Translations under genes and position numbers: made by a program
Source of the DNA: a virus
DNA length: 45,532 nt
Strand: one strand, 5' to 3'
IMG/VR virus record: IMGVR_UViG_3300007276_000012
Coordinates: 1 to 45,532 of that record
Shown: one piece after another, positions 1 through 45,532 of the stretch
How positions within the stretch are numbered: position 1 is the stretch's first letter
Layout of the letters: every line of letters starts with the position of its first letter
Notes under the pieces: model-generated
What the model saw: the letters and a program-made list of their open reading frames with translations, nothing else
The model's database searches: none
What the model was told of the DNA's origin: nothing

Positions 1-266
1 AAGTAGTAACGCCACCTGTCGTTGATACACCCGAAGTAGTAACGCCACCTGTCGTTGATGCGCCCGAAGTAGTAACACCTCCAGCGGTAACGGGCCCGAC
101 GACGTTCCCAGAGTTGATGAAATTCATCACCGTGAACAATAAGAAGTTAACGAAAGAGTCAGTCGACGAAGCGTTGAAAGCGCAAGGTTTAGCGTCTATC
201 GCGTTACTTGCTGCGCGTACCGACTTGATCCCACAGATTCACGCTGCATTGGTGAAATTATTATGA
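1..266 (+). CDS. Pro/Val-rich repeat protein, C-terminal part (gene starts at 44851)
   Basis: Reading frame 3 (codons from base 3) continues the repeat units EVVTPPVVDTP, then a compact C-terminal domain beginning TFPELMKFIT and ending ALVKLL before the TGA at 264-266. TFPELMK-type domains occur in phage proteins that also carry the GLPWDxRIH motif, which supports this being the same protein. The stop overlaps the next start as ATGA, so translation of the nuclease gene is probably coupled. The true repeat number is uncertain because the assembly ends inside the repeats. Confidence 0.8.
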   Translation, partial: VVTPPVVDTPEVVTPPVVDAPEVVTPPAVTGPTTFPELMKFITVNNKKLTKESVDEALKAQGLASIALLAARTDLIPQIHAALVKLL

Positions 267-11735: not shown

Positions 11736-11773
11736 AATTACACAAGTGATGGGTATTGTTGCGAGTGTAGCAT

Positions 11774-11797
11774 AAAAAAACGCCCCAATGAAGGGGC
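11774..11797 (-). terminator. Rho-independent terminator ending the ncRNA unit
   Basis: Minus strand: GCCCC-TTCATT-GGGGC, one G, then seven T. It lies between the structured non-coding region and the spike gene, 38 bases before the spike start. Confidence 0.9.
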
Positions 11798-11921
11798 TAA
11801 AGGAGTGCTGCGGAAGTCGAGACACACAATCCGGCTTTTACGGCGACATGTAAAGTTAGCTAGTGCCTCACTAACGACGCTTGATACTCGATCGAATCTT
11901 ATTCGGCTGGTGACTTAGAAG

Positions 11922-12073
11922 CACGCCCCACGTAAGGTGAATATGCCGCATTTTACCGTGTAAATCACCATGCGAATAAAATTTTAATTTACCTCGGTTA
12001 CGTCTAACGCGACGTTACGGGGCTGCAAGGTGTCAGTGCCTTGCCACTTACGGATCACCTCCCGTGGGGCGTG
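11922..12073 (-). repeat. 17-bp two-part inverted repeat with nested hairpins
   Basis: CACGCCCCACG pairs with CGTGGGGCGTG (11 bp). After a 2x2 internal loop, AGGTGA pairs with TCACCT. The enclosed 114 nt holds GCAAGG/CCTTGC, ACGTC/GACGT and a bulged CGCAT..TTTAC/GTAAA..ATGCG hairpin. Confidence 0.85.
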
Positions 12074-12130
12074 TGCCGAGTAATGTGATGTCTGTGTGAC
12101 CAGCTAGTAATTTAAGTCAGACAATTATCA

Positions 12131-12222
12131 CATTGTGAATACCCTTCCGATTGAACGGTTCCTCAATCCTTGGCGTGGCGAGGGCTAACAGCTGCTCCCA
12201 ACTTTAAAGGGTATTCACAATG
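12131..12222 (-). repeat. Perfect 16-bp inverted repeat
   Basis: CATTGTGAATACCCTT at 12131-12146 and its exact reverse complement at 12207-12222. The 60-nt loop contains a second stem, GATTGA/TCAATC, and on the minus strand AGTTGGGAG and GTTCAATC, which resemble D-arm and T-arm sequences. Confidence 0.9.
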
Positions 12223-12248
12223 TACGCTCGTAACGTGAGCGACCCGAA

Positions 12249-12332
12249 TGTGATGGTGGGACTCGAACCCACGAATACCGTCAGCACAATGTTATTGCTA
12301 CTATCGGCGGCTTACCATTTGCGGACATTACA
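12249..12332 (-). tRNA. tRNA-like element B (degenerate)
   Basis: 84 nt. Acceptor TGTAATG/CATCACA pairs at 6 of 7 positions. The T-arm GTGGG-TTCGAGT-CCCAC is perfect. The D-arm region AAATGGTAAGC looks tRNA-like. The central hairpin TAGCA/TGCTG has a 9-nt loop, ATAACATTG, rather than a 7-nt anticodon loop. Starts 8 bases after element A. May be a decayed class II tRNA or a domain of the larger RNA. Confidence 0.4.
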
Positions 12333-12340
12333 TTGTTAAA

Positions 12341-12421
12341 GTGTCTGGTATGATTCGAACCTACACTATCGTTCACGATGTGCTACCGACAGGTCGCGAC
12401 CCCGATTAACACTACAGACAC
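12341..12421 (-). tRNA. tRNA-like element A (degenerate)
   Basis: Acceptor stem GTGTCTG/CAGACAC is perfect (7 bp). The T-loop is canonical TTCGAAT on a stem with one mismatch. U8 is present and the D-loop contains GG. An extra CAC-ATCG-TGAA-CGAT-a-GTG hairpin occupies the variable-arm place. The anticodon arm cannot be built convincingly (no U33), so no isotype is given. Flanks extend the acceptor helix to 16 bp (12415-12430 with 12332-12347), unusual for a processed tRNA. Confidence 0.4.
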
Positions 12422-12554
12422 CTTAACAATATAATAAACCGCGTGGGCGGTAACGGCTCTTTGCCAGTCAAGATTTTAAATAACGCGTCTTGTGAGAACT
12501 GTTATTATACGGGGGTAGTGCCGTTATCTACCTTTACGCGTTCACCGTACAAAC

Positions 12555-12584
12555 ATTATTAATCAATCGTGACATGCTTGTCAA
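12555..12584 (-). promoter_or_regulatory. Promoter for the ncRNA unit
   Basis: Minus strand: perfect TTGACA (12584-12579), 18-nt spacer, AATAAT (5 of 6 matches to TATAAT); TAATAA with a 17-nt spacer is the alternative. It sits 4 bases after the hub stop codon. A partial copy of the phage dyad (TTGACaagcatGTCAc) overlaps the -35. Confidence 0.65.
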
Positions 12585-12587
12585 CTG

Positions 12588-13448
12588 TTAAATTCGATAA
12601 CCTGTTATTCGTGTGCTCCACGCGTCGCCCTTTGTGTCGCCCGTGTGCGATACGCGAAATATCTTATATTCACCAACACCCGCCGATTCGGGTATGTCCA
12701 CAAAATACAAGTTGCTAAAATTGAACGTTGCTAAATCCGATTCGATTCGGTATTTACCACCGATACGAATTTTAGGATTTAGTCGGATCATAACGTCGAC
12801 GCCGACCTCGGTTATCTCTGGGATACCCTCCATGCCGGTAAACTGCGATACGACATGAGTCTCACCGTCACGAGCGAACCCTTCACGAACCACGATTACA
12901 CGCTCGTTTTCAATCACGTAATTAAACGCGTGGGTTTTAGCGAGATTGTCGAGATACACGCGCGGGTCGCCACTTAGTGCGTAACCGTATGGATACGGGT
13001 CAATGTCACTAAAATGGTCGTCGTTCATCACGATGGGGTATTCCATCGCTTTGACGCAAGCACGAATAATATCAGTCGCTTTGGTATTCTTGCCGAGCGT
13101 TTCGTTTACTTGGGTCTGGTCGTCTGTCAACTTACCGCCGCGACAAATAAGCCTCGTTATCGTGTCGGGTCCGATACGCTCGCGTAATACGTTTTGAATA
13201 GTACCGGTAAAAACGTTATCGATTGTTTCTTCATAACCAGCTTTTAACGATAATTTAGTACCACGTGTAAAAGCTTTGTTCGCTGTGTCAGCACTCAAAT
13301 TATATAAAGCAATATCGGCGTAACTTGTATAACCGCCAAAATCGTGCAGAACTTCAAACGTCGCTTTAAATTGTTGGCCGTTTGTCGCAGCGATGAAAAC
13401 CACATCGTCTAGCGCAATTTCCCATTGTCGTTTAGTGTAATTACTCAT
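12588..13448 (-). CDS. Baseplate hub protein (gp27/gpD-like)
   Basis: 286 residues. Hub features: DIALYNLSADTANKAF and TKLSLKAGYE followed by NVFTGTIQNVLRERIGPDTIT, the hub-domain pattern (local frame plus secretion-like beta barrel). Then an ATDIIRACVKAM helix and a C-terminal FRVSHTGDTKGDAWSTRI, typical of the family. Overlaps the plug gene by 8 bases. Forms the hub on which the spike sits. Confidence 0.8.
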   Translation of the reverse strand: MSNYTKRQWEIALDDVVFIAATNGQQFKATFEVLHDFGGYTSYADIALYNLSADTANKAFTRGTKLSLKAGYEETIDNVFTGTIQNVLRERIGPDTITRLICRGGKLTDDQTQVNETLGKNTKATDIIRACVKAMEYPIVMNDDHFSDIDPYPYGYALSGDPRVYLDNLAKTHAFNYVIENERVIVVREGFARDGETHVVSQFTGMEGIPEITEVGVDVMIRLNPKIRIGGKYRIESDLATFNFSNLYFVDIPESAGVGEYKIFRVSHTGDTKGDAWSTRITGYRI

Positions 13449-19821: not shown

Positions 19822-20424
19822 TTACAATCCCTCGGTAGGTTTACCGCTATCGATTTTATACGTGACGCTTTGGCGCATCGCTCCCGAATCTATCAGCGGA
19901 TTTGACGAACCTTTCTTTTTGATCGTGCTTGCCGCGTTCGGCGGTGTGCGTAAATCCGTCATGTATTTTTGAACCTTACCGACCGCCACGACCCCGACCT
20001 TGTTTAACGCCTGTTCGGGTGTGCCGCCGTCGGCCATTGTTTTCTCGATGATACTCAGGTATTCGTCGTTACCACTCGCAACGCCAGGGCTAAGCCACGG
20101 GCGGGCAGGTATTTTAATCACGTGTGGGCCTGTGACACCCAACTCCATGTAACCTTTGCCTGATTTTAAAAACCTCACTTCGTTACGATCCGATGCGGCT
20201 TTACTCGCGTAACCGTAGGACGTGCCGCCGGGGTGATTAATATCCGCGCCGAACTCGTGAACCGCACCAAGTCCCGCCATGGTTAAATCGTCCGACTCGA
20301 CGTTGCCCGCATCCTCGTGAATACCAATGGTCACAAATTTGTCAGTCATCAACTCGCGCAACGCCTTTTGAATAGCGTCACGGGCTTGTTGTACGTTGAT
20401 CACAGTCACTTTAGGTTTTATCAT
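19822..20424 (-). CDS. Tail completion / virion morphogenesis protein (HK97 gp10-like)
   Basis: 200 residues from the ATG at 20424; no good ribosome binding site is seen there, so a start up to 20511 is possible. GLGAVHEFGADI and the later IPARPWLSPG are family hallmarks, followed by helices and GAMRQSVTYKI at the C-terminus. An inverted repeat, TATAAC-acgc-GTTATA (20434-20449), lies just before the start and could be an operator. Confidence 0.75.
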   Translation of the reverse strand: MIKPKVTVINVQQARDAIQKALRELMTDKFVTIGIHEDAGNVESDDLTMAGLGAVHEFGADINHPGGTSYGYASKAASDRNEVRFLKSGKGYMELGVTGPHVIKIPARPWLSPGVASGNDEYLSIIEKTMADGGTPEQALNKVGVVAVGKVQKYMTDLRTPPNAASTIKKKGSSNPLIDSGAMRQSVTYKIDSGKPTEGL

Positions 20425-20518
20425 GTCGTCGATTATAACACGCGTTATAGTACCCTGCACTAACCCCACAATAAAATAAGGTCGGGGCGTTATTAAGAAT
20501 TTAAAAATCAATCACTTA

Positions 20519-20746
20519 TCACTCTTACCTCTATACCTTACTTTTTAATAACTGTAAGAATTATAAGTATGTATATAGTATATACAGTATGGATCATACA
20601 TACTTATACAGATAATATACAAGAATACTATAGAGAGTATCGAACGATACGGGGTTTGTAGTATAAACAAGGTAACTCTTTCGAATCAACACGTTACGCC
20701 ACCTCAAACACCGTGTCATTACCTCAAAGTTCGGGTAAATGAATGA
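20519..20746. promoter_or_regulatory. AT-rich control region, copy A
   Basis: No gene. Contains ACCTCTATACCT, a run of TATATAGTATATAC-type alternating AT, AGAGAGTATCGAACGATACG with a GTATC/GATAC hairpin, then GAATCAACA and ACCTCAAAC. The same elements occur in the same order at 34380-34590, so the two regions share an origin. Both lie where minus-strand operons face plus-strand genes. Candidate divergent promoter region or replication origin. Confidence 0.7.
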
Positions 20747-20774
20747 TTGACAACCGCGTCAATAGTGTTAGTAT
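20747..20774 (+). promoter_or_regulatory. Promoter with TTGAC-N6-GTCAA operator
   Basis: TTGACA, 16-nt spacer, TAGTAT; the dyad TTGAC-AACCGC-GTCAA covers 20747-20762. Nearly identical to the element at 15609, including the shared AATAGTGTT. Drives the lipoprotein gene. Confidence 0.75.
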
Positions 20775-20826
20775 ACAAATCAGACGACGGAGATTCGCTT
20801 CGTCGCGTTAACGAACGGTGAACGAT

Positions 20827-21192
20827 ATGAAAAAGATTATTAGTATATTTTTAGTTTTGGGTTTATTTGGTTGTAGCGATGCGATGGTCGCGTCAAGTAA
20901 TTTGTCAAAAGCGTCCGACATGTTCGAAATAGAAAGAAGAATAGTGTTTTACAATGGTATAACTGGAGAATACATGTTATCCATTGAAGGATTATGTTCC
21001 ATATCACCAGACTCTACAAAGGTGGCAGTGACATGTAAAACTGGAAAAGATGAATACAAGAAACATTATCTTGGTTTATCTGACAATGTGACTTACTTCG
21101 CCGAACAGATTGAATCGTCAGGTGTAGGTGTTGATAGTTACCGCGTGATATTTAAACCATCGGCGATTATACCAGACATCGAACTGCATTAA
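20827..21192 (+). CDS. Phage lipoprotein (beta-sandwich type)
   Basis: 121 residues from the ATG at 20827 (a GTG 9 bases earlier is less likely). Lipoprotein signal MKKIISIFLVLGLFGCS with lipobox LFGC. The mature part is all-beta (RRIVFYNGITGEYMLSIEG, HYLGLSDNVTYFAEQI), resembling beta-sandwich lipoproteins of temperate and lytic enterophages. Codons are more AT-rich than its neighbours, and it has its own promoter inside the virion operon. Surface lipoproteins of this kind often block receptors against superinfection; here that is inference. Confidence 0.75.
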   Translation: MKKIISIFLVLGLFGCSDAMVASSNLSKASDMFEIERRIVFYNGITGEYMLSIEGLCSISPDSTKVAVTCKTGKDEYKKHYLGLSDNVTYFAEQIESSGVGVDSYRVIFKPSAIIPDIELH

Positions 21193-34235: not shown

Positions 34236-34669
34236 TCTAGTTCAGCCCATTATCTAACATGCCGTCAATAATGCCACAATTCGCCCCATAACGCCACACA
34301 TCGAGCAGTACCCCGAACGGAATAAGTGAGGTAAATTAAATAGGTAATATCTAATCGTTATAAATCAATGACTTAATGCTAATACCTCTATACCTCTATT
34401 CTTTTAAAGTTATAAGGGTAAGTAAGTAAGAGTATAATACATAGTATATAGTAATAAATATATATACATATAGTATATGCTAATGGTGATAATTAATAGA
34501 GAGAGTATCGAATGATACGGGGTCACCCCCACTTTTCAGTTAACGGTTTTGATTCAACAGCTTACAGTACCTCAAACGCTACCCCGCAAATTAAGGTGGC
34601 GCAAAGTCATATCATAATGATATAATAATCGTGACGTAATTTGACGTTATTATATAAAGAGAATATGAC
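34236..34669. promoter_or_regulatory. AT-rich control region, copy B (434 bp, no gene)
   Basis: Holds TACCTCTATACCT, direct GTAAGTAAGTAAGAG, a long TATATA tract with TAGTATATAG, AGAGAGTATCGAATGATACG with a GTATC/GATAC hairpin, and GATTCAACA...ACCTCAAAC, in the same order as at 20519-20746. A 15-bp near-palindrome, ATATCAT-A-ATGATAT (34609-34623), and TATAAT (34621) precede the plus-strand gene. Candidate divergent promoters, origin or packaging site. Confidence 0.7.
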
Positions 34670-35443
34670 ATGACAGTATACCACCACGCCAACGGACTTC
34701 CTTCGAAGTATCCAACGGACCAAGAATTTGCAATGAACGTAAAGTCGTCATACTATGATGACGGCGTAAAATGCCCTACATGTGAAGTTATGAGCGTAAA
34801 ATATACACACGATAAGTCGTGTAGATGGTGTGTAAGGCAACGAGCGATACACTTATATAACCTAAGTGTGGGTAGCGACCTCGTGTATATCAACACCGAA
34901 ACGGGTCGAGCAATGGCTAAAATAGCACGTTCAACTGACGTCGAAATACCATCAGAAACGTTTAGTAGAATGCTCGAATTAGTCGACATCGCAAAGAGTG
35001 ATAACGCGTTCACAGTATCAACTGAACCGTGTAAAACTAAACCTCACTTCGGGCTTAAACGTTATGGTAAGTGTTACGAGTGCGAATTAGAGAAGAACAA
35101 ACCAACGGTGCGCCAAGTAGCCATATCAAAGGGTGAGAACTGGTACATACCATCGACACCTTGCCCGCGATGTGAAACACGTTCAGAACGTCACGTGTAT
35201 AACGGATCATGTCGTGGTTGCTCACCAGTTAAACATGACACAGCGGGTAACGACGACCGTTCAACGCCCGACTCGATCATGATGCACGCTAACCCCGACA
35301 TGATCCTCAGTCGCGAAGATGCCCGCGCGTATGACATGAAAGTGTATCGCACTGGTCAGAAATGCAAACACGGACACGACCATTGGCGCTACGTATCCAC
35401 CGGTAATTGCATAACGTGCCTACGCACTAAGGACGGTGAGTGA
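34670..35443 (+). CDS. Multi-zinc-ribbon protein without catalytic domain
   Basis: 257 residues. Four Cys-rich units: CPTC...CRWC (about 36-55), a looser C..CYEC unit (about 119-140), CPRC...CRGC (about 165-185) and CKHGHDHW...CITC (about 235-253). The last closely resembles the ribbons of the HNH protein at 29263 (YRTGQKCKHGH against YFTGKPCKHGH), but no HNH, GIY-YIG or other nuclease core is present. Possibly a DNA-binding protein derived from homing nucleases. Ends TKDGE in a GGTGAGTGATG junction. Confidence 0.7.
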   Translation: MTVYHHANGLPSKYPTDQEFAMNVKSSYYDDGVKCPTCEVMSVKYTHDKSCRWCVRQRAIHLYNLSVGSDLVYINTETGRAMAKIARSTDVEIPSETFSRMLELVDIAKSDNAFTVSTEPCKTKPHFGLKRYGKCYECELEKNKPTVRQVAISKGENWYIPSTPCPRCETRSERHVYNGSCRGCSPVKHDTAGNDDRSTPDSIMMHANPDMILSREDARAYDMKVYRTGQKCKHGHDHWRYVSTGNCITCLRTKDGE

Positions 35444-38469: not shown

Positions 38470-38498
38470 AGATTAATTGTTCTTGACGGAATTGTCAA
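38470..38498 (-). promoter_or_regulatory. Promoter with TTGAC-N6-GTCAA operator inside a gene end
   Basis: Minus strand TTGACA (38498-38493), 17-nt spacer, TAATCT (38475-38470). The dyad TTGAC-AATTCC-GTCAA (38483-38498) covers the -35, as at 15609 and 20747. It lies within the last codons of the primase-helicase gene and drives the small-gene block below. Confidence 0.7.
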
Positions 38499-40863
38499 CA
38501 CTTATCGACGCTGACAACAAATCACCTTGAGCGGCAGCGTAAAGCCTCGCTATTTCAGCACCACTCGTCAAGTTACTGTGAATGTGACCAACGCGAATAT
38601 AGAGTCGAGGTTTTCCCGCTTCCATCGGTATGACGTTATTCACACGGCCATCTTTCAAACCTGGATGATAATCGTAACCTAACGTGCGCATCAACTCGCG
38701 TCGTTTATTACGTGTGACCATATTACCTTTACGCATATTATCGATTAACGCGTCAAGTTTGAACGATGACACCCAACCACCAGCAAAACCTTCACGTCCT
38801 TCGTCGATTGCTTCGATAATTTCTTGCTCGACACTACCCATACCAATGGTAGCAGCTTCGGCGGTACTTGATGTTATCGGCGCGGTTTGACAACTCATAG
38901 TGGGGTTAAATTCGTCTGGTATCGCGTAGTCAGTTAAAAACTGGGCGACCTTAGCGTAACCCTTGTCGTTATCTAACCAGTCGTACAACTTCGAGAAATA
39001 CGAACCGTCCATGCCATCACGAACAAGGTCGATCTTTTCCTGTTGCGCCGAATAAAACACACAGTAGCGTCGGTCTTTGGTCGCGTCTTTAATACCGTCT
39101 TTGTGGTTCGAGTTGAACATGAAGTTACAGCAAATATTATGCATCGCTTGGTCGGTATTCATCGCACGACGGGCCAATCGCTTATTTGTGATCATCGGTT
39201 TGAGCGTTTCAATCATTTCCATTTTGTTCGACGGAACGTAAATATCCTCTACGCCAATGAACATCGTATTAAATAACCAGGCGTTAAACTTCTCGCTGAT
39301 TTCAAGTGCAGGTGGCATGTGGGTGTAACGGTCGCCAATGGCATACGCTACGCAACGAGTAAATAACGTCTTACCGTTACCAACAACGCCTTGTAATAGT
39401 GGCGCCCACTGTATTTTATAACCTTTGTATTGAATGCACGCGGCCATATAACTAAGCAGTATTGTCTGGTCCCGTTCGTCTGGTAACACTTTGCTTAAAT
39501 GTGTCATGAACGGTGTGACATCGCCTTCAATCATTTGCACGTTAATCGGTACGTATGTATTGACATAACGCCAACCGTCAACATCAACGATACTACACGG
39601 TTTAAGGTCAGGTCTGAACGTCATCGAATCGACTTTTGGATTGTGTAAACACTGCGACTCGGTAAACGCCTCCCATGCCTTTTTAGTCGTCTTTTCACCC
39701 TCGTTATCAGTAACGAACGAATAACCGCCGTACATCGCATTAAACTGGTCAGATTTGAGCATTGCGCCGTTAGGTGTGAATACTTTGTTAGTCTCGGCGA
39801 TATACACACAACCTTTGAAGATGTCGACCTGTTGTTCAGCACTAAGCAATTGGTAACCTTCGCGGAAAACCGACTCGACAACGATACTAGTATCTTCAAG
39901 TTCGATAGGTGCGCCGATACTGTAAAATGTTTCTTGACGTGCGCACGCTCCCGTGATGGTTCGTTCCATGTACGACTTGTGATAGTCCCACTTTGGGCGA
40001 ACAAGACCCGATAATCTCATAATACGTTCAATACGGGCGCAATCATTACCCGTCCAAAACGCCAAATGTTGAGCAATCGCAGCGTCAGCGCTAGACTCGT
40101 CAAAGTCTCGAACGTCATCAGGATATGTACCAGCTAACGCCTCGACGTTACGTGTCCACAAGTCTTTAAACGATGCTCGGATAACTCCACCGCCGAACAT
40201 CTGTTGAGCCGTAGCGGTCGCAGCAGAGCCTAGAGCTTTCTCGATTAGCTTTTCGTCCGTCTTGGGTGGGTAGCTACCTTCACAATGTGTCGTTGTCCAT
40301 TCGTGTGCGTTACGTTCACTCGACACGCTCGCGGGGAAATACGACGGGATGACGGAACTCAACGCCTCAGTGTGAACAAATCCAGCATCACCGACAATAC
40401 CGTTGCCAGTGAGCGCAACGAAGCGCCCCGAGGTGTATAGCTCGAGGTGTAACGGGATGTTCTTACAACCGTGGTCAGGTTCTGCACCGTCGTACTTACC
40501 AATGATGTGCAAGCCTGTACCAGACTGCGACACTTCAACCGCCGCACCGGTAAATCGATTGCACAAATCCGTCGCAAGTGTTGACCATGCTGTACCGTCA
40601 TACGCCCCATCGATATCAACGAAGAAAAACGGATCGTTATCGGTGAACACGAACCCGACGCCAAGGTCGGACGACTGAGCGACCGTCACGGCCGTGTCAG
40701 CGTCGACCCAGTGTTTCGGATCGTGTGCATCAACGATATTACCGAGAATATCACACGGGAATTTATCGAACTTACCCGCGCGACGTTTCGACGCTACCGC
40801 TTTCCATAATACAAACTGAGGATAAGCCCGCATCGCTGCGAGCGCTTGGGGGAATTGCTTCAT
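38473..40863 (-). CDS. Primase-helicase (prim-pol plus D5-type SF3 helicase)
   Basis: 796 residues. N-terminal prim-pol-like region: FFFVDIDGAYDG (DxD at 83-85), SGTGLHIIGKYD, HLELYTSGRFVALTG. Middle DUF-type linker with NDCARIERIMRLSGLVR, typical of phage primase-helicases. C-terminal SF3 helicase: Walker A GVVGNGKT (492-499), Walker B FIGVEDI (E539, D540), FMFNSNHKDGI and KDRRYCVF (sensor/arginine region). Unwinds and primes at the replication fork, partner of the family B polymerase. Confidence 0.85.
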   Translation of the reverse strand: MKQFPQALAAMRAYPQFVLWKAVASKRRAGKFDKFPCDILGNIVDAHDPKHWVDADTAVTVAQSSDLGVGFVFTDNDPFFFVDIDGAYDGTAWSTLATDLCNRFTGAAVEVSQSGTGLHIIGKYDGAEPDHGCKNIPLHLELYTSGRFVALTGNGIVGDAGFVHTEALSSVIPSYFPASVSSERNAHEWTTTHCEGSYPPKTDEKLIEKALGSAATATAQQMFGGGVIRASFKDLWTRNVEALAGTYPDDVRDFDESSADAAIAQHLAFWTGNDCARIERIMRLSGLVRPKWDYHKSYMERTITGACARQETFYSIGAPIELEDTSIVVESVFREGYQLLSAEQQVDIFKGCVYIAETNKVFTPNGAMLKSDQFNAMYGGYSFVTDNEGEKTTKKAWEAFTESQCLHNPKVDSMTFRPDLKPCSIVDVDGWRYVNTYVPINVQMIEGDVTPFMTHLSKVLPDERDQTILLSYMAACIQYKGYKIQWAPLLQGVVGNGKTLFTRCVAYAIGDRYTHMPPALEISEKFNAWLFNTMFIGVEDIYVPSNKMEMIETLKPMITNKRLARRAMNTDQAMHNICCNFMFNSNHKDGIKDATKDRRYCVFYSAQQEKIDLVRDGMDGSYFSKLYDWLDNDKGYAKVAQFLTDYAIPDEFNPTMSCQTAPITSSTAEAATIGMGSVEQEIIEAIDEGREGFAGGWVSSFKLDALIDNMRKGNMVTRNKRRELMRTLGYDYHPGLKDGRVNNVIPMEAGKPRLYIRVGHIHSNLTSGAEIARLYAAAQGDLLSASISVDNSVKNN

Positions 40864-41138
40864 GCGTCCCCCTCGTTGATAGCGTCTAATATCTCTTGTG
40901 TTTTTCGTTCGAAACCTACAACTTTAACATTCAGTGTCATATTCTCGTACATGATATTATGTATATTGGTTTCAAGTTCCGCGATACGTTTAGCACATAC
41001 ATCACGTTCTTTACGTATCATTCTAAGTTCGCGTTGTAATTTTTCGTAATCGTCAAACTTGACGAATTCACCGTCGTTGTCGCTTTGAATGTCGCCGGTA
41101 TAATTACCGGTGTGAGAATATCGCTTAATATCATTCAT
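40860..41138 (-). CDS. Coiled-coil hypothetical protein, 92 aa
   Basis: RYSHTGNYTGDIQSDNDGEF then VKFDDYEKLQRELRMIRKE: a common phage N-terminal pattern followed by a long coiled coil (about 30-85). ATGA overlap with the primase-helicase start. Function unknown. Confidence 0.7.
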   Translation of the reverse strand: MNDIKRYSHTGNYTGDIQSDNDGEFVKFDDYEKLQRELRMIRKERDVCAKRIAELETNIHNIMYENMTLNVKVVGFERKTQEILDAINEGDA

Positions 41139-41460
41139 CGTCGTTACCGCCCATTAGTAGTTCGAGTGATTCGCGTTTTAGCCATTCAGGTGCAGCGTGG
41201 GCGTCTTTGTCGCCTTGGGCTAGACCTTGTGCAATGATTGGACGTAACTCACGGTGAACGGCAGCACGCATAACGGCGCGACGTAATTGTGTCATAGTGT
41301 TAAAGATGTGGTTAACCTGACCCGTGGCCACACCCGCAACTTGAGCAACACCGTCACGTGTCAGGGCGTTATACCCGTCAGTGTTGGCAATCTGTAACGC
41401 TGCGGCTAATATCTGGTCGCGTCGTGCTTCTGGTTTCATTCTGGTACGTTGGTCTGACAT
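41131..41460 (-). CDS. TetR-like DNA-binding protein
   Basis: 109 residues from the ATG at 41460. The N-terminal HTH matches TetR-type: RRDQILAAALQIANTDGYNA, LTRDGVAQVAGVATGQVNHI, FNTMTQLRRAVMRAAV. The ligand domain is absent or very short (a full TetR is about 200). A symmetric dimeric regulator, it is a plausible binder of the TTGAC-N6-GTCAA dyads, though a direct link is not shown. Confidence 0.7.
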   Translation of the reverse strand: MSDQRTRMKPEARRDQILAAALQIANTDGYNALTRDGVAQVAGVATGQVNHIFNTMTQLRRAVMRAAVHRELRPIIAQGLAQGDKDAHAAPEWLKRESLELLMGGNDDE

Positions 41461-41502
41461 GTTGGGTAATCCTTGGTTAAGTAGCAAATTGGCTAGAACG
41501 TC

Positions 41503-41699: not shown

Positions 41700-42178
41700 A
41701 ATGAACCCTCTGCATTCACAAAACACGCATCGCCACCTAATGCAACTACCAATTCCAAAAACCGCAATTGCGCCAGTTCGTGTTTATTACCCTTATATTT
41801 CCAATCGCCAGCCTTACACTCACGAGCCACAAATTGACCTATCGTTGAACCTAAGTGTTCTTGGGTGACTAAAATCGGTTTGATACCTATGAGGTCACTA
41901 CACTTTATAACTTCGTTCATTTGTTTTGACTCATTGCAAAGACCATATCGAACCATCCTTCCACTTTGGTCTTGATATGCTCCTGTATTACAACGCCACA
42001 AACGCGCCCCGACTCGGGACGCCTCTAGTCGCACGTTATTACTAACCGTCGCTTCATTCTTACCGACCATAGCGTTCGTCGGGCACGTTGCGGGCGATAA
42101 GAATATAGTTTGTAACTCAGCAAGCGCCACGTGCGATACACCGTGACGGATTGCCCATTGCGTTAACTGTGGGTTCAT
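41696..42178 (-). CDS. VRR-NUC domain nuclease
   Basis: 160 residues from the ATG at 42178, coupled to the Mom-like gene (ATGA). EATVSNNVRLEASRVGARLW then CNTGAYQDQSGRMVRYGL, SDLIGIKPILV and IGQFVARECKAGDWKYKG show the PD-(D/E)XK-type VRR-NUC core (E..., D-L-x-G, E-x-K). In phages such proteins act as structure-specific nucleases, for example on junctions. Confidence 0.85.
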   Translation of the reverse strand: MNPQLTQWAIRHGVSHVALAELQTIFLSPATCPTNAMVGKNEATVSNNVRLEASRVGARLWRCNTGAYQDQSGRMVRYGLCNESKQMNEVIKCSDLIGIKPILVTQEHLGSTIGQFVARECKAGDWKYKGNKHELAQLRFLELVVALGGDACFVNAEGSL

Positions 42179-42765
42179 ATCTTCTCGTCCCATAACGGTT
42201 TAAGTTTTTTATCGTACACTATCAAATACCTGTGTTTAATACTTCTATCTCGCCATTCCCCCGACACACCTTTCGTTTTACCCCTGGAACGCTTAGTAAA
42301 ACTTCCGTCTGATTGTTGAACCCAAAAATCTTTTTTCGGAGTAGACGTGCCGTAATATTTAAAATTACACGCCCTATAAATAACCCCCTTGTGATAATTA
42401 CAGTCAGCATAACTCAACACACAACGAACTTTTGTATCGCGTTTCAATTGTTTCAATGCCCTAGATACAAACCAACTCGTTATATTATGTTCATATTGCT
42501 GATAATGCGGACTAACGCAAAGCCTACTTAATTCAAACAAACCGTCTTGGTCTGACCTATCTAATCCGAAAAGACCCTTTGATAGTTCAGGAACAGGAAA
42601 ACCAGTGAATATACACACGCCAATTAAAGCGTCATGGTGAAATAACCCATAATTAAAACCACTTTTGAAGCTTTTACTTAAACCAGATAAGTAATGCCAC
42701 CCGTCTAGTATATTTTTACACTCATTCTTAGTTACTATACGTAAGCTATAATCACTTTTACTCAT
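42175..42765 (-). CDS. Mom-like DNA modification protein (GNAT fold)
   Basis: 196 residues. GWHYLSGLSKS, YGLFHHDALIGVCIFTGFPV, FELSRLCVSPHYQ, NITSWFVSRALKQL, VLSYADCNYHKGVIYRACNF then KYYGTST match phage Mom-type proteins, which place a carbamoylmethyl-type group on adenine and protect against restriction. Start overlaps the helicase stop (TGATG), stop overlaps the VRR-NUC start. Modification of this phage's DNA is inferred. Confidence 0.75.
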   Translation of the reverse strand: MSKSDYSLRIVTKNECKNILDGWHYLSGLSKSFKSGFNYGLFHHDALIGVCIFTGFPVPELSKGLFGLDRSDQDGLFELSRLCVSPHYQQYEHNITSWFVSRALKQLKRDTKVRCVLSYADCNYHKGVIYRACNFKYYGTSTPKKDFWVQQSDGSFTKRSRGKTKGVSGEWRDRSIKHRYLIVYDKKLKPLWDEKI

Positions 42766-44486
42766 CACTCTACACTCCCAATATCCATTGCAACACGTTC
42801 ACCGAGCGTCAAAGCCGCTTCGGTACTTAGCGCTTGAGCGCTTAACCAGTCTACGCCGTAACGTAGGTAAAACCGTCTAAATATTTCGCTATCGTCACGT
42901 CCGGCCGCACGGTAATGTCCCGCCCATATCGCCATGATTTCACGTAATGCGCCGATGGCTTGCTGTTGCGCTTCGAGTTTGCCGGCGAACCGTTTCGTGT
43001 GCGCCATTACGCCGATGGTTGGTGTGTGTTTACGCATCAAGTCGGCGCGGTACTCTGCTACCGCTTCGTCTATCGGGCGGTCAACCTTCGCAACTTCGCC
43101 ACGCATCGCCGCGAGCGTATCGGCATCAAGCTCGAACAAATCCCCATCGACGTGTTCCGGCCCTGTTCGCTCGGCAGGCGTTGGCGTTCGTATCTCAAGC
43201 CCACAAAATGGGCAAACTTTGAGGAACCGCTCAAACACCGAGTAACACCCTTGCGCCGTAACGACACCATCAACTTTATGGTCGACGCACGTTCGCGTCG
43301 TATTCTCAGCTTCGCCACTTCCACGCTTTTCGCGTCTGTCAAGCGACCATTCGCGTTTAGCGTCCGGTAAACCGTGACGGGCTACGTTACCCACGTGATC
43401 AATAATGATGGCGTGGGTTTTACCTGGTGATACTCGAAGCGCTCTACCAAACATTTGACAATATAAACCGTAGCTTTGCGTTGGTCTGGCAAATGTCACG
43501 ACCTCGACACAAGGTATGTCTGTACCCTCAGTGAACAACATGTCGTTAACTATCTGTAATATTTTACCGCTCGCAATATCCTTGATCGCATTGTCGCGCT
43601 CTGAATCTTCACTTTTACCAGATAGGGCTATAGCTGGCACACCTTTAGCGCGATACTGTTCAGCGACACGTTCTGCCATTTCCACGCCGACTGTGAATGT
43701 TAAACCAGGTTTACCTTTGGCTATGCGCAAATACTGATCAACAATATCGCCGACTATATGCGACTTACCAATTTCAGCTTTAAGTGAATTTTCTTGGTAA
43801 TCCCCCGTGGTCTTACTTACTAAAACCTCGTTCAGATTAAGGTCGCTCGGCGGTGAGAATATACGGTAATCGCTAAGATACTTCATATCCATCAATTGAC
43901 GCGCAGTAGGGCCTAACACCATACAATCACCGTAACCGTCTGTTTCACGCGATAAACCTTGCCCGTCTGCCCGACAAGGTGTGGCAGTAACACCAAGACC
44001 TTTAGCCCCCGCGTCGTCGAGTGGTGTTAGTATACCGCCCCAAGTTTTTGACTTTTTAGTCGCGTGATGAAACTCATCCTGAATGACTGTTAACTTATCT
44101 TTATACTTTGAAAAATTAGCGATCACACTTGGTTTTATAGATTGTACCGACCCGACAAATACCTTACTTGTTGGCGTGACAAATGATTTGCCAAACTCTA
44201 ATATTTGTTGTTTGTGTGCTGCTTTAACGGTATTAGTCGCGGCCAGTATGTTGTGCATCAACCCGTTACGCGCAAGCGTATGACTCAACTGTGTGATTAA
44301 CTCACGACGATGTGCAAGAATAAGTAATACCTGACCGCTATCACGTTCAATTCTGGCAATCTCACACAGCGTCGCTGATTTACCTGAACCAGTGGGCATA
44401 ACTAACACGACAAATTGTTTACCATCTTCCCAACACTGATATACATCATTAATCGCTTTCGCCTGATATGGGCGCATTGTTATCAT
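42765..44486 (-). CDS. SF2 DEAD/DEAH-type helicase
   Basis: 573 residues; GGAGG 9 bases before the ATG. Q-like MRPYQAKAIN, motif I MPTGSGKSA (30-38), motif II QDEFHH (137-141), motif III GVTATPCRADG, motif IV/V LFTEGTDIPCVE, motif VI QMFGRALRVSPGK. A CPFCG zinc pair lies after the helicase core, and a helical tail (EIMAIWAGHYRAAGR) follows. Likely replication, recombination or repair helicase, at the head of the operon with Mom-like and VRR-NUC genes. Confidence 0.9.
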   Translation of the reverse strand: MITMRPYQAKAINDVYQCWEDGKQFVVLVMPTGSGKSATLCEIARIERDSGQVLLILAHRRELITQLSHTLARNGLMHNILAATNTVKAAHKQQILEFGKSFVTPTSKVFVGSVQSIKPSVIANFSKYKDKLTVIQDEFHHATKKSKTWGGILTPLDDAGAKGLGVTATPCRADGQGLSRETDGYGDCMVLGPTARQLMDMKYLSDYRIFSPPSDLNLNEVLVSKTTGDYQENSLKAEIGKSHIVGDIVDQYLRIAKGKPGLTFTVGVEMAERVAEQYRAKGVPAIALSGKSEDSERDNAIKDIASGKILQIVNDMLFTEGTDIPCVEVVTFARPTQSYGLYCQMFGRALRVSPGKTHAIIIDHVGNVARHGLPDAKREWSLDRREKRGSGEAENTTRTCVDHKVDGVVTAQGCYSVFERFLKVCPFCGLEIRTPTPAERTGPEHVDGDLFELDADTLAAMRGEVAKVDRPIDEAVAEYRADLMRKHTPTIGVMAHTKRFAGKLEAQQQAIGALREIMAIWAGHYRAAGRDDSEIFRRFYLRYGVDWLSAQALSTEAALTLGERVAMDIGSVE

Positions 44487-44785: not shown

Positions 44786-44815
44786 TTGACAATGTGGTCA
44801 TAATACATTTAATAT
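44786..44815 (+). promoter_or_regulatory. Promoter of the replication operon
   Basis: TTGACA (44786-44791), 18-nt spacer, TAATAT (44810-44815). An imperfect dyad TTGAC-AATGTG-GTCAt covers the -35. It lies in the 124-bp divergent gap between the two early operons and reads into the repeat protein at 44851. Confidence 0.7.
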
Positions 44816-44850
44816 GGCGCTATCGTCAACAAACAACTAAGGATTTAACG

Positions 44851-45532
44851 ATGAAATTAGAATTACCTGATAATAACGCAAGCGTATTGTTCCACATGGG
44901 TAACGCCCTGCAATCTATCGCACGTGACATTGATACGTCATTGCCAGTTAACGGCCACACCGAAACGACAGGTGATGTTAGTCACAGTGTAACAGTTGAG
45001 CCGTCACTCGAAGACATTTTAGATAATCCACCCGCTGCGACCGACGAACTTAAAGAACTATTATCGCCACACACTGAAGTCGTCGAGTACGATGAAGACG
45101 TCACCAGTGATGACGAGCCTAACGACACAATCGACGCGGACGGTTTACCGTGGGATTCACGCATTCACAGTCGCGGTAAAACTCGCTTATCGGATAACAC
45201 GTGGCGTATGGCTCGCAAGCCTAACGACAAGTCCGACGAAGAATGGGCCGAATACGTCGAGGGCGTTAAAGTTGAACTAAAAGCTTTAATGGATATTCCT
45301 GTCGTCGTTGAAGCGCCTGAAGTAGTAACGCCTCCTGTCGTTATCGAAGCGCCCGAAGTAGTAACGCCTCCTGTCGTTATCGAAGCGCCCGAAGTAATAA
45401 CACATCCTTTCGCTATCGAACCACCTGTCGTTGATGCGCCCGAAGTAGTAACGCCACCTGTCGTTGATACACCCGAAGTAGTAACGCCACCTGTCGTTGA
45501 TGCGCCCGAAGTAGTAACGCCACCTGTCGTTG
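44851..45532 (+). CDS. Pro/Val-rich repeat protein, N-terminal part (gene continues at base 1)
   Basis: The ATG follows AAGGA at a good distance. The frame runs off the window end and continues at base 1 to a TGA at 264-266, giving 315 residues when the ends are joined (682 + 266 nt, in frame). N-terminal acidic region; residues about 95-122 carry DADGLPWDSRIHS followed by a TWR, a motif familiar from phage proteins encoded near replication genes. From about residue 150 the protein is an 11-12 residue repeat of the type EVVTPPVVDAP. First gene of the plus-strand replication operon. Function unknown; an accessory role in replication is inferred from position and from the same motif at the polymerase C-terminus. 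Confidence 0.8.
   Translation, partial: MKLELPDNNASVLFHMGNALQSIARDIDTSLPVNGHTETTGDVSHSVTVEPSLEDILDNPPAATDELKELLSPHTEVVEYDEDVTSDDEPNDTIDADGLPWDSRIHSRGKTRLSDNTWRMARKPNDKSDEEWAEYVEGVKVELKALMDIPVVVEAPEVVTPPVVIEAPEVVTPPVVIEAPEVITHPFAIEPPVVDAPEVVTPPVVDTPEVVTPPVVDAPEVVTPPVV
45308..45532 (+). repeat. 33-bp tandem repeats, continuing at bases 1-99
   Basis: In-frame tandem units of 33-36 bp with core GAAGTAGTAACGCC-ACCTGTCGTTGAT encode EVVTPPVVxxP. Bases 1-76 are identical to 45443-45518, so the window ends overlap within the repeat. This supports a circular or circularly permuted molecule, and it also means copies could have been collapsed or added in assembly. Confidence 0.9.

Follow-up and report, generated by a model that had tools for sequence, protein, structure and literature searches.

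The window, as the 45,532-base virus record of a small contractile-tailed phage analysed here is termed, contains two copies of an AT-rich element of approximately 290 bp each lying 13.85 kb apart, and this duplication is real and deeply conserved. On the basis of its anatomy, its co-occurrence with replication genes and the analogy with phage SPP1, the balance leans towards the two copies being a conserved pair of origin-like replicator elements. The preliminary description of this DNA had offered three candidate functions, of which the replication origin is now the best supported, the late promoter holds in part and the packaging site is contradicted (see below). If the origin reading is true, a two-origin design would run across a group of small contractile phages that includes the Klebsiella Jedunavirus isolated for therapy, and with cultured members in existence the pair is directly testable.

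Anatomy of the two copies

PHROG scans of 30 window proteins, together with Pfam, identified virion genes for tail sheath, neck1, baseplate, capsid and terminase and a replication set comprising DNA polymerase, primase-helicase, helicase and exonuclease. The window TerL is approximately 73% identical to the TerLs of Klebsiella Jedunavirus, 72% identical to that of Pectobacterium phage PEAT2 (Peatvirus) and 71% identical to that of Edwardsiella phage MSW-3 (Yokohamavirus), the element-bearing lineage being the dwarf-myovirus one of Jedunavirus, Peatvirus and Yokohamavirus with their environmental relatives. Both elements are intergenic, each separating a plus-strand gene from the start of a virion operon on the minus strand (that of terS or that of neck1), which bears out the earlier placement of both copies at minus/plus divergences. 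Adjoining the neck1-side copy, a small lipoprotein-like protein is encoded at 20818-21192 that matches phrog_478, named "recombination directionality factor", and Pfam VG64; despite that name no integrase was seen among the scanned window proteins.

The neck1-side element (20455..20735, minus strand) reads toward neck1 and the terS-side element (34303..34597, minus strand) reads toward terS, with the limits placed by eye on the outer boxes within profile matches that take in the flanks at 20422-20845 and 34253-34694, respectively. The copies had originally been placed at the correct locations with boundaries that were too short, the element extending on the gene side to approximately 20455 and 34303. 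All five of the shared words claimed to lie in a fixed order were found in the same order at both sites. In the window GAGAGTATCGAAYGATACGGGG occurs exactly twice with up to three mismatches allowed, where shuffles give an expectation of 0, while TACCTCTATACCT is found at 20526 and at 34383. Pairwise alignment of the copies gave a local score of 89, whereas 1000 dinucleotide-shuffle pairs averaged 21.2 and never exceeded 38; the best of 395 other window tiles reached 26. BLASTN of one copy against the other returned 68.9% identity over 167 bp (E=1e-9), with the core at 20501-20655 aligned against 34358-34523.

Read in the direction of the gene, both window copies start with distal GAGGT(A)/GGGGTA boxes followed by a CCCCG box and an AT-rich tract of approximately 100 bp, after which come a tandem GGTA box AGGTATAGAGGTA, a TAAGT..TTGATT word, TACC and GGGGT(A) boxes and an extended -10-like match. 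On the neck1 side the distal TTTGAGGT boxes lie at 20700..20729, the CCCCG box with the hairpin word at 20633..20654, the AT-rich tract at 20539..20630, the tandem GGTA box at 20526..20538 and the gene-proximal GGGGT and GGGTA boxes at 20451..20467, all boxes being on the minus strand. The corresponding positions on the terS side, again with the boxes on the minus strand, are 34568..34585 for the distal TTTGAGGTA and GGGGTA boxes, 34501..34522 for the CCCCG box with the hairpin word, 34397..34500 for the AT-rich tract, 34383..34395 for the tandem GGTA box and 34309..34314 for the gene-proximal GGGGTA box. The central AT-rich tract thus has GGGGTA/TACCCC boxes on either side, and GGGGTA is the top enriched 6-mer when elements are compared with the rest of the same genomes (105 observed, 3.4 expected). 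In the alignment of 26 copies, the best-conserved block is the tandem GGTA box together with the TACCCCG..GGGGTA region. The hairpin GTATC-GAAY-GATAC, which had been put forward as a conserved feature, is by eye gone in most relatives and confined to the close relatives of the window, the conserved parts being instead the GGGGTA/TACCCC boxes, the tandem GGTA box and the AT tract.

Duplex stability was calculated in 80-bp windows from nearest-neighbour stacking energies, using the values of SantaLucia 1998. In all 19 element-bearing records longer than 25 kb, the 80 bp of lowest stability genome-wide fell within an element, and the two copies took stability ranks 1 and 2 in 14 of the 18 two-copy records, with the exceptions of G006 (1 and 3), G026 (1 and 4), G029 (1 and 3, with rank 2 in the first copy) and G030, in which the second copy is interrupted by the contig end. 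In the window, the AT-rich tract of the terS-side copy is the least stable site and that of the neck1-side copy the second least stable.

Conservation and association with replication genes

Conservation in relatives, the lack of which would in the preliminary description have counted against the element, is strong. A profile made from 26 copies from 13 genomes was run over 37 records and detected the element in 22 of the 23 sampled phage records with an NrS-1-like primase-helicase; among these 22, the 11 that had contributed no copy to the profile all still matched (11/11). All 22 records with a primase at least 44% identical to that of the window through the C-terminal half carry the element, while the distant Rhizobium phage RHph_TM3_3_9 (RhTM3), with a primase 34% identical, gave no profile match. 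The element was found in none of the nine records without the primase C-terminal half (PLPE, F18, V138, K211, LZ35, G013, G014, G010, of which 40,000 of 40,607 bases were scanned, and G011). Fragments G003, G005, G007, G008 and G009, in which the replication region is absent or possibly absent, were omitted from the co-occurrence count; four of these five carry the element and G009 gave no match.

Two copies are present in 18 records longer than 25 kb, one in the terS position and one at neck1, each in the direction of the gene, while G031 gave a single profile match. The copies keep these two places though the neck1 proteins fall to 38% identity with that of the window. As the sequence diverges fast, a BLASTN search of phages and plasmids with the neck1-side copy found no match, and the profile was therefore needed. 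The 168-bp core of KpV52 matches 140 places in 71 deposited phage records, some of them GenBank/RefSeq duplicates, and as such offers annotators a landmark by which the element can be located. No mention of the element in these phages was found in the literature searched, from which subscription papers were largely absent.

The comparison used to find which genes the element tracks took in both primase halves and 64 ORFs of the window. In this small sample of records related by descent, taken with no tree correction, two items alone, the Gp2.5-like SSB and the C-terminal half of the primase, occurred in every one of the 17 long element-bearing records and, RhTM3 apart, in none of the 10 that lack the element. 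The virion proteins of the window are for the most part shared with element-less PLPE, F18, V138 and K211, the neck1 of PLPE being 60% identical and the capsid protein of V138 74% identical to those of the window. V138 lacks the C-terminal half of the primase, although the N-terminal half is there along with the polymerase, exonuclease, helicase and TetR-like protein. The TetR-like protein (41131-41487) was considered as a binder of the boxes and rejected, being found in all 17 long element-bearing records and also, at 34-35% identity, in PLPE and V138, neither of which carries the element.

These relatives have AT-rich regions of their own. Upstream of terS in V138 lies a different AT-rich region with TGTGACAG repeats (L057 16420-16900), in F18 (L056 45440-46020) and K211 clusters of ATGACAC repeats adjoin low-stability DNA, and in RHph_TM3_3_9 the least stable DNA is flanked by inverted repeats upstream of terS, in a 400-bp gap between that gene and an HNH gene (L142 2410-2810). 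Judged by their sequences, the regions of V138, F18 and RHph_TM3_3_9 are candidate single origins. With their different replication genes these relatives have different AT-rich repeats, and every replication type seems to have an AT-rich repeat region of its own, a pattern expected of origins.

The primase-helicase itself is a protein of 796 aa encoded at 38473..40863 on the minus strand (PHROG 1829, E=4e-158). It matches the Pfam NrS-1 HBD (PF22763) with 72.1 bits, the cutoff being 27.9, as well as DUF5906 (PF19263), and its profile matched solved NrS-1-type primase and helicase chains with E=1.7e-29 and 2.7e-11; by these matches it is assigned to the NrS-1 type, with an HBD, a primase part and an SF3-like helicase part. 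The full-length model was too poor for use (pLDDT 48), and the last 138 residues were modelled with modest confidence (pLDDT 71.8). Many of the structural matches listed for this C-terminal model are winged-helix domains, with a best Z of only 6.0, which is weak; Foldseek gave no match to it at E <= 0.001 and the P4 alpha protein was not among the matches listed. A C-terminal winged-helix DNA-binding domain is tentatively proposed in the primase-helicase.

Origin-like organisation and comparable known systems

Of the three candidates the origin has the most support, in the least-stable AT-rich DNA, the flanking repeats, the co-occurrence with the primase-helicase and a layout like that of SPP1. 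The GC-skew check, however, gave no consistent origin, with the fitted switch points scattered. In all 15 genomes the cumulative GC-skew maximum, the usual mark of a terminus, lies upstream of the terS copy at a distance of no more than 1.4 kb, a place at which the genes also switch direction. In the mechanism we envisage, the boxes would be bound by a replication protein of the phage, for which the NrS-1-like primase-helicase is the likeliest candidate; this protein would then open the AT tract, and replication would begin there, at one copy or at both. If the pair works as in SPP1, theta replication may start at one copy while the other may stall forks and thereby aid the switch to concatemers. 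The gene-proximal box would assist the late promoter.

In Bacillus phage SPP1, oriL and oriR are described as two similarly organised sites with repeats and an AT-rich unwinding element, approximately 13 kb apart on the circular genome, oriR lying within a segment that carries moron genes and breaks up the late region, and fork stalling at oriR-bound gp38 has been proposed to switch replication to concatemers (PMC6316719). Measured against that account, the elements here are likewise two similar sites, 12.1-20.2 kb apart in 15 genomes, with repeated boxes beside a tract that is AT-rich by composition and nearest-neighbour energy only, and with one copy in the late region adjoining a moron-like gene. 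In contrast to SPP1, in which oriL is inside the initiator gene, both copies here are intergenic with the primase gene elsewhere, and they are joined to candidate late promoters. Where SPP1 uses gp38, a helicase loader and a DnaB-type helicase, the candidate here is the NrS-1-like primase-helicase, and gp38 was not among the PHROG matches of the 30 scanned window proteins. The SPP1 origins have been experimentally studied, whereas the pair described here is known from sequence alone. SPP1 was the only phage with two such origins to turn up in the literature searched. The phiPLPE group is reported to be circularly permuted (PMC3391216), which suits packaging from concatemers.

In phage NrS-1, two copies of an 8-nt polymerase recognition sequence have been suggested as a possible origin (PMC7102993). 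The protein there is of the same type, with primase, HBD and SF3-like helicase, but the two 8-nt sites are located mid-genome and are to be set against two elements of approximately 290 bp here. The satellite phage P4 likewise has, in ori and crr, two separated repeat-bearing regions that serve one primase-helicase. The elements described here differ from P4 ori and crr in both spacing and sequence.

Promoter, packaging and other readings

It is somewhat unlikely, and still to be weighed seriously, that the copies are elaborate late promoters or enhancers only, in which a phage activator bound to the GGGGTA boxes would turn on the operons of terS and neck1, helped by the AT tract in the role of UP-element or curved DNA, with no role in replication. 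The element is always found at a late gene and in the direction of that gene, a fixed orientation explained more simply by a promoter than by an origin. A predicted extended -10, TGTTATAAT, precedes the neck1 operon at 20432..20440 (minus strand; start codon 20424) and a weaker extended -10-like sequence with two mismatches, TGGCATTAT, precedes terS at 34268..34276 (minus strand), both positioned by eye. A GGGGT/GGGTA box lies 28-31 or 40 bp ahead of the extended -10-like match in 17 of the 26 copies. A match with at most one mismatch was found in 12 of 26 copies as against 45 of 2000 random segments, the score being the best match within a 60-nt stretch and several copies coming from near relatives. 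Five copies have no -10 score, there being no box in the stretch (PEAT2 and KB2 terS) or the last box being too near the gene (KpV52, MSW3 and PVN06 neck). Taken together these matches are suggestive only of a promoter end on the gene side of the element.

Several observations weigh against a promoter and nothing more. Of the four heads of late operons located after plus-strand insertions in the window (34235, 27226, 20424 and 15624), two have the element, which is therefore not a general late promoter; the proposal of a shared late-promoter class is borne out only insofar as the gene-side end of many copies resembles a promoter, with an extended -10. The element tracks the primase C-terminal half and SSB rather than virion genes, and some 290 bp with boxes flanking the least stable DNA of the genome exceeds what a promoter needs. 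A separate palindrome also makes a stronger case as a phage-wide promoter class; its exact 16-bp form, TTGACR-N4-YGTCAA, occurs at five window sites (4947, 15609, 20747, 27367 and 38483), several of them at divergent junctions, and with one mismatch at eight sites where 0.81 are expected. As TTGAC-N6-GTCAA it was counted 48 times in 11 related genomes, compared with 0-5 at each other spacing from 0 to 14. To judge from its sequence it looks like a phage-wide promoter/operator class in which TTGAC could act as a -35 in both directions, and for that reason it is preferred to the element in this role. The TetR-like protein is not a clean candidate for binding this palindrome, as PLPE and G025 have the protein without it.

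The two functions may be combined, the copies being replicator-promoters at which an initiator on the GGGGTA boxes would both open the origin and switch on the terminase and neck operons, with recombination homogenising the pair. This we regard as unlikely; if true, it would tie late expression to replication through the gene-proximal box near -40.

That the elements are pac sites recognised by TerS is highly improbable. One copy is immediately upstream of terS and the circular permutation reported for the phiPLPE group would fit, but the second copy is approximately 14 kb off and a TerS 65% identical to that of the window is present without the element in G013 and G014. The terS-side copies of G003 and G023 are 97% identical over 392 bp although their TerS differ, that of G003 being 80% identical to the TerS of the window and that of G023, assigned to the same broad family (phrog_51), giving no BLASTP alignment with it. 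An element 97% identical before non-alignable terminases is therefore no packaging site for this TerS. TerS was likewise rejected as the partner of the element, which does not go with its TerS.

Just as improbable are structured RNA leaders of late transcripts, which the position upstream of late genes and the small inverted repeat in the window copies might suggest. The hairpin is not shared by most relatives, no Rfam family was found over the window at gathering scores, and transcripts started from the extended -10 matches, which are on the gene side of the element, would not include it.

Within some genomes the two copies are strikingly alike. In G004, AAM22, G027 and G029 all eight copies have the other copy of their own genome as best match, which overall is the case for 11 of 36 copies and so is not general. 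With close relatives in the set, the same-slot copies of those relatives are usually the best match, the neck copy of the window being 88% identical to the G023 neck copy over 314 bp, while in KB2 both copies are identical across 150 bp. By these comparisons the copies are homogenised within several genomes, and recombination between them would preserve their likeness. Recombination alone could achieve this even in a chance or selfish duplication with no function, an explanation that is exceedingly unlikely given that the same two places and the boxes are kept at neck1 identities down to 38%. Several metagenome contigs terminate within elements (G007, L051; G008, L052; G030, L128) and some such contigs cover just the approximately 14 kb from one copy to the other, these ends probably being due to near-identical copies breaking assemblies.

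The ends of the window (1-266 and 44794-45531) have repeats in common, with 82 bp at 97.6%, which sit within a single proline/valine-rich repetitive protein that reads through the junction. Given these repeats and one protein across the record junction, a circular or permuted genome is probable, the number of repeats in it being uncertain. Within the baseplate operon approximately 850 bp (11741-12588) are without a long ORF, and the sole RNA-family trace there, which falls short of the gathering score, is an 18-nt minus-strand match at 12256-12273 resembling a tmRNA 3' end. The window also encodes a Mom-like DNA modification protein at 42175-42768 (PHROG 1384, E=4.4e-34).
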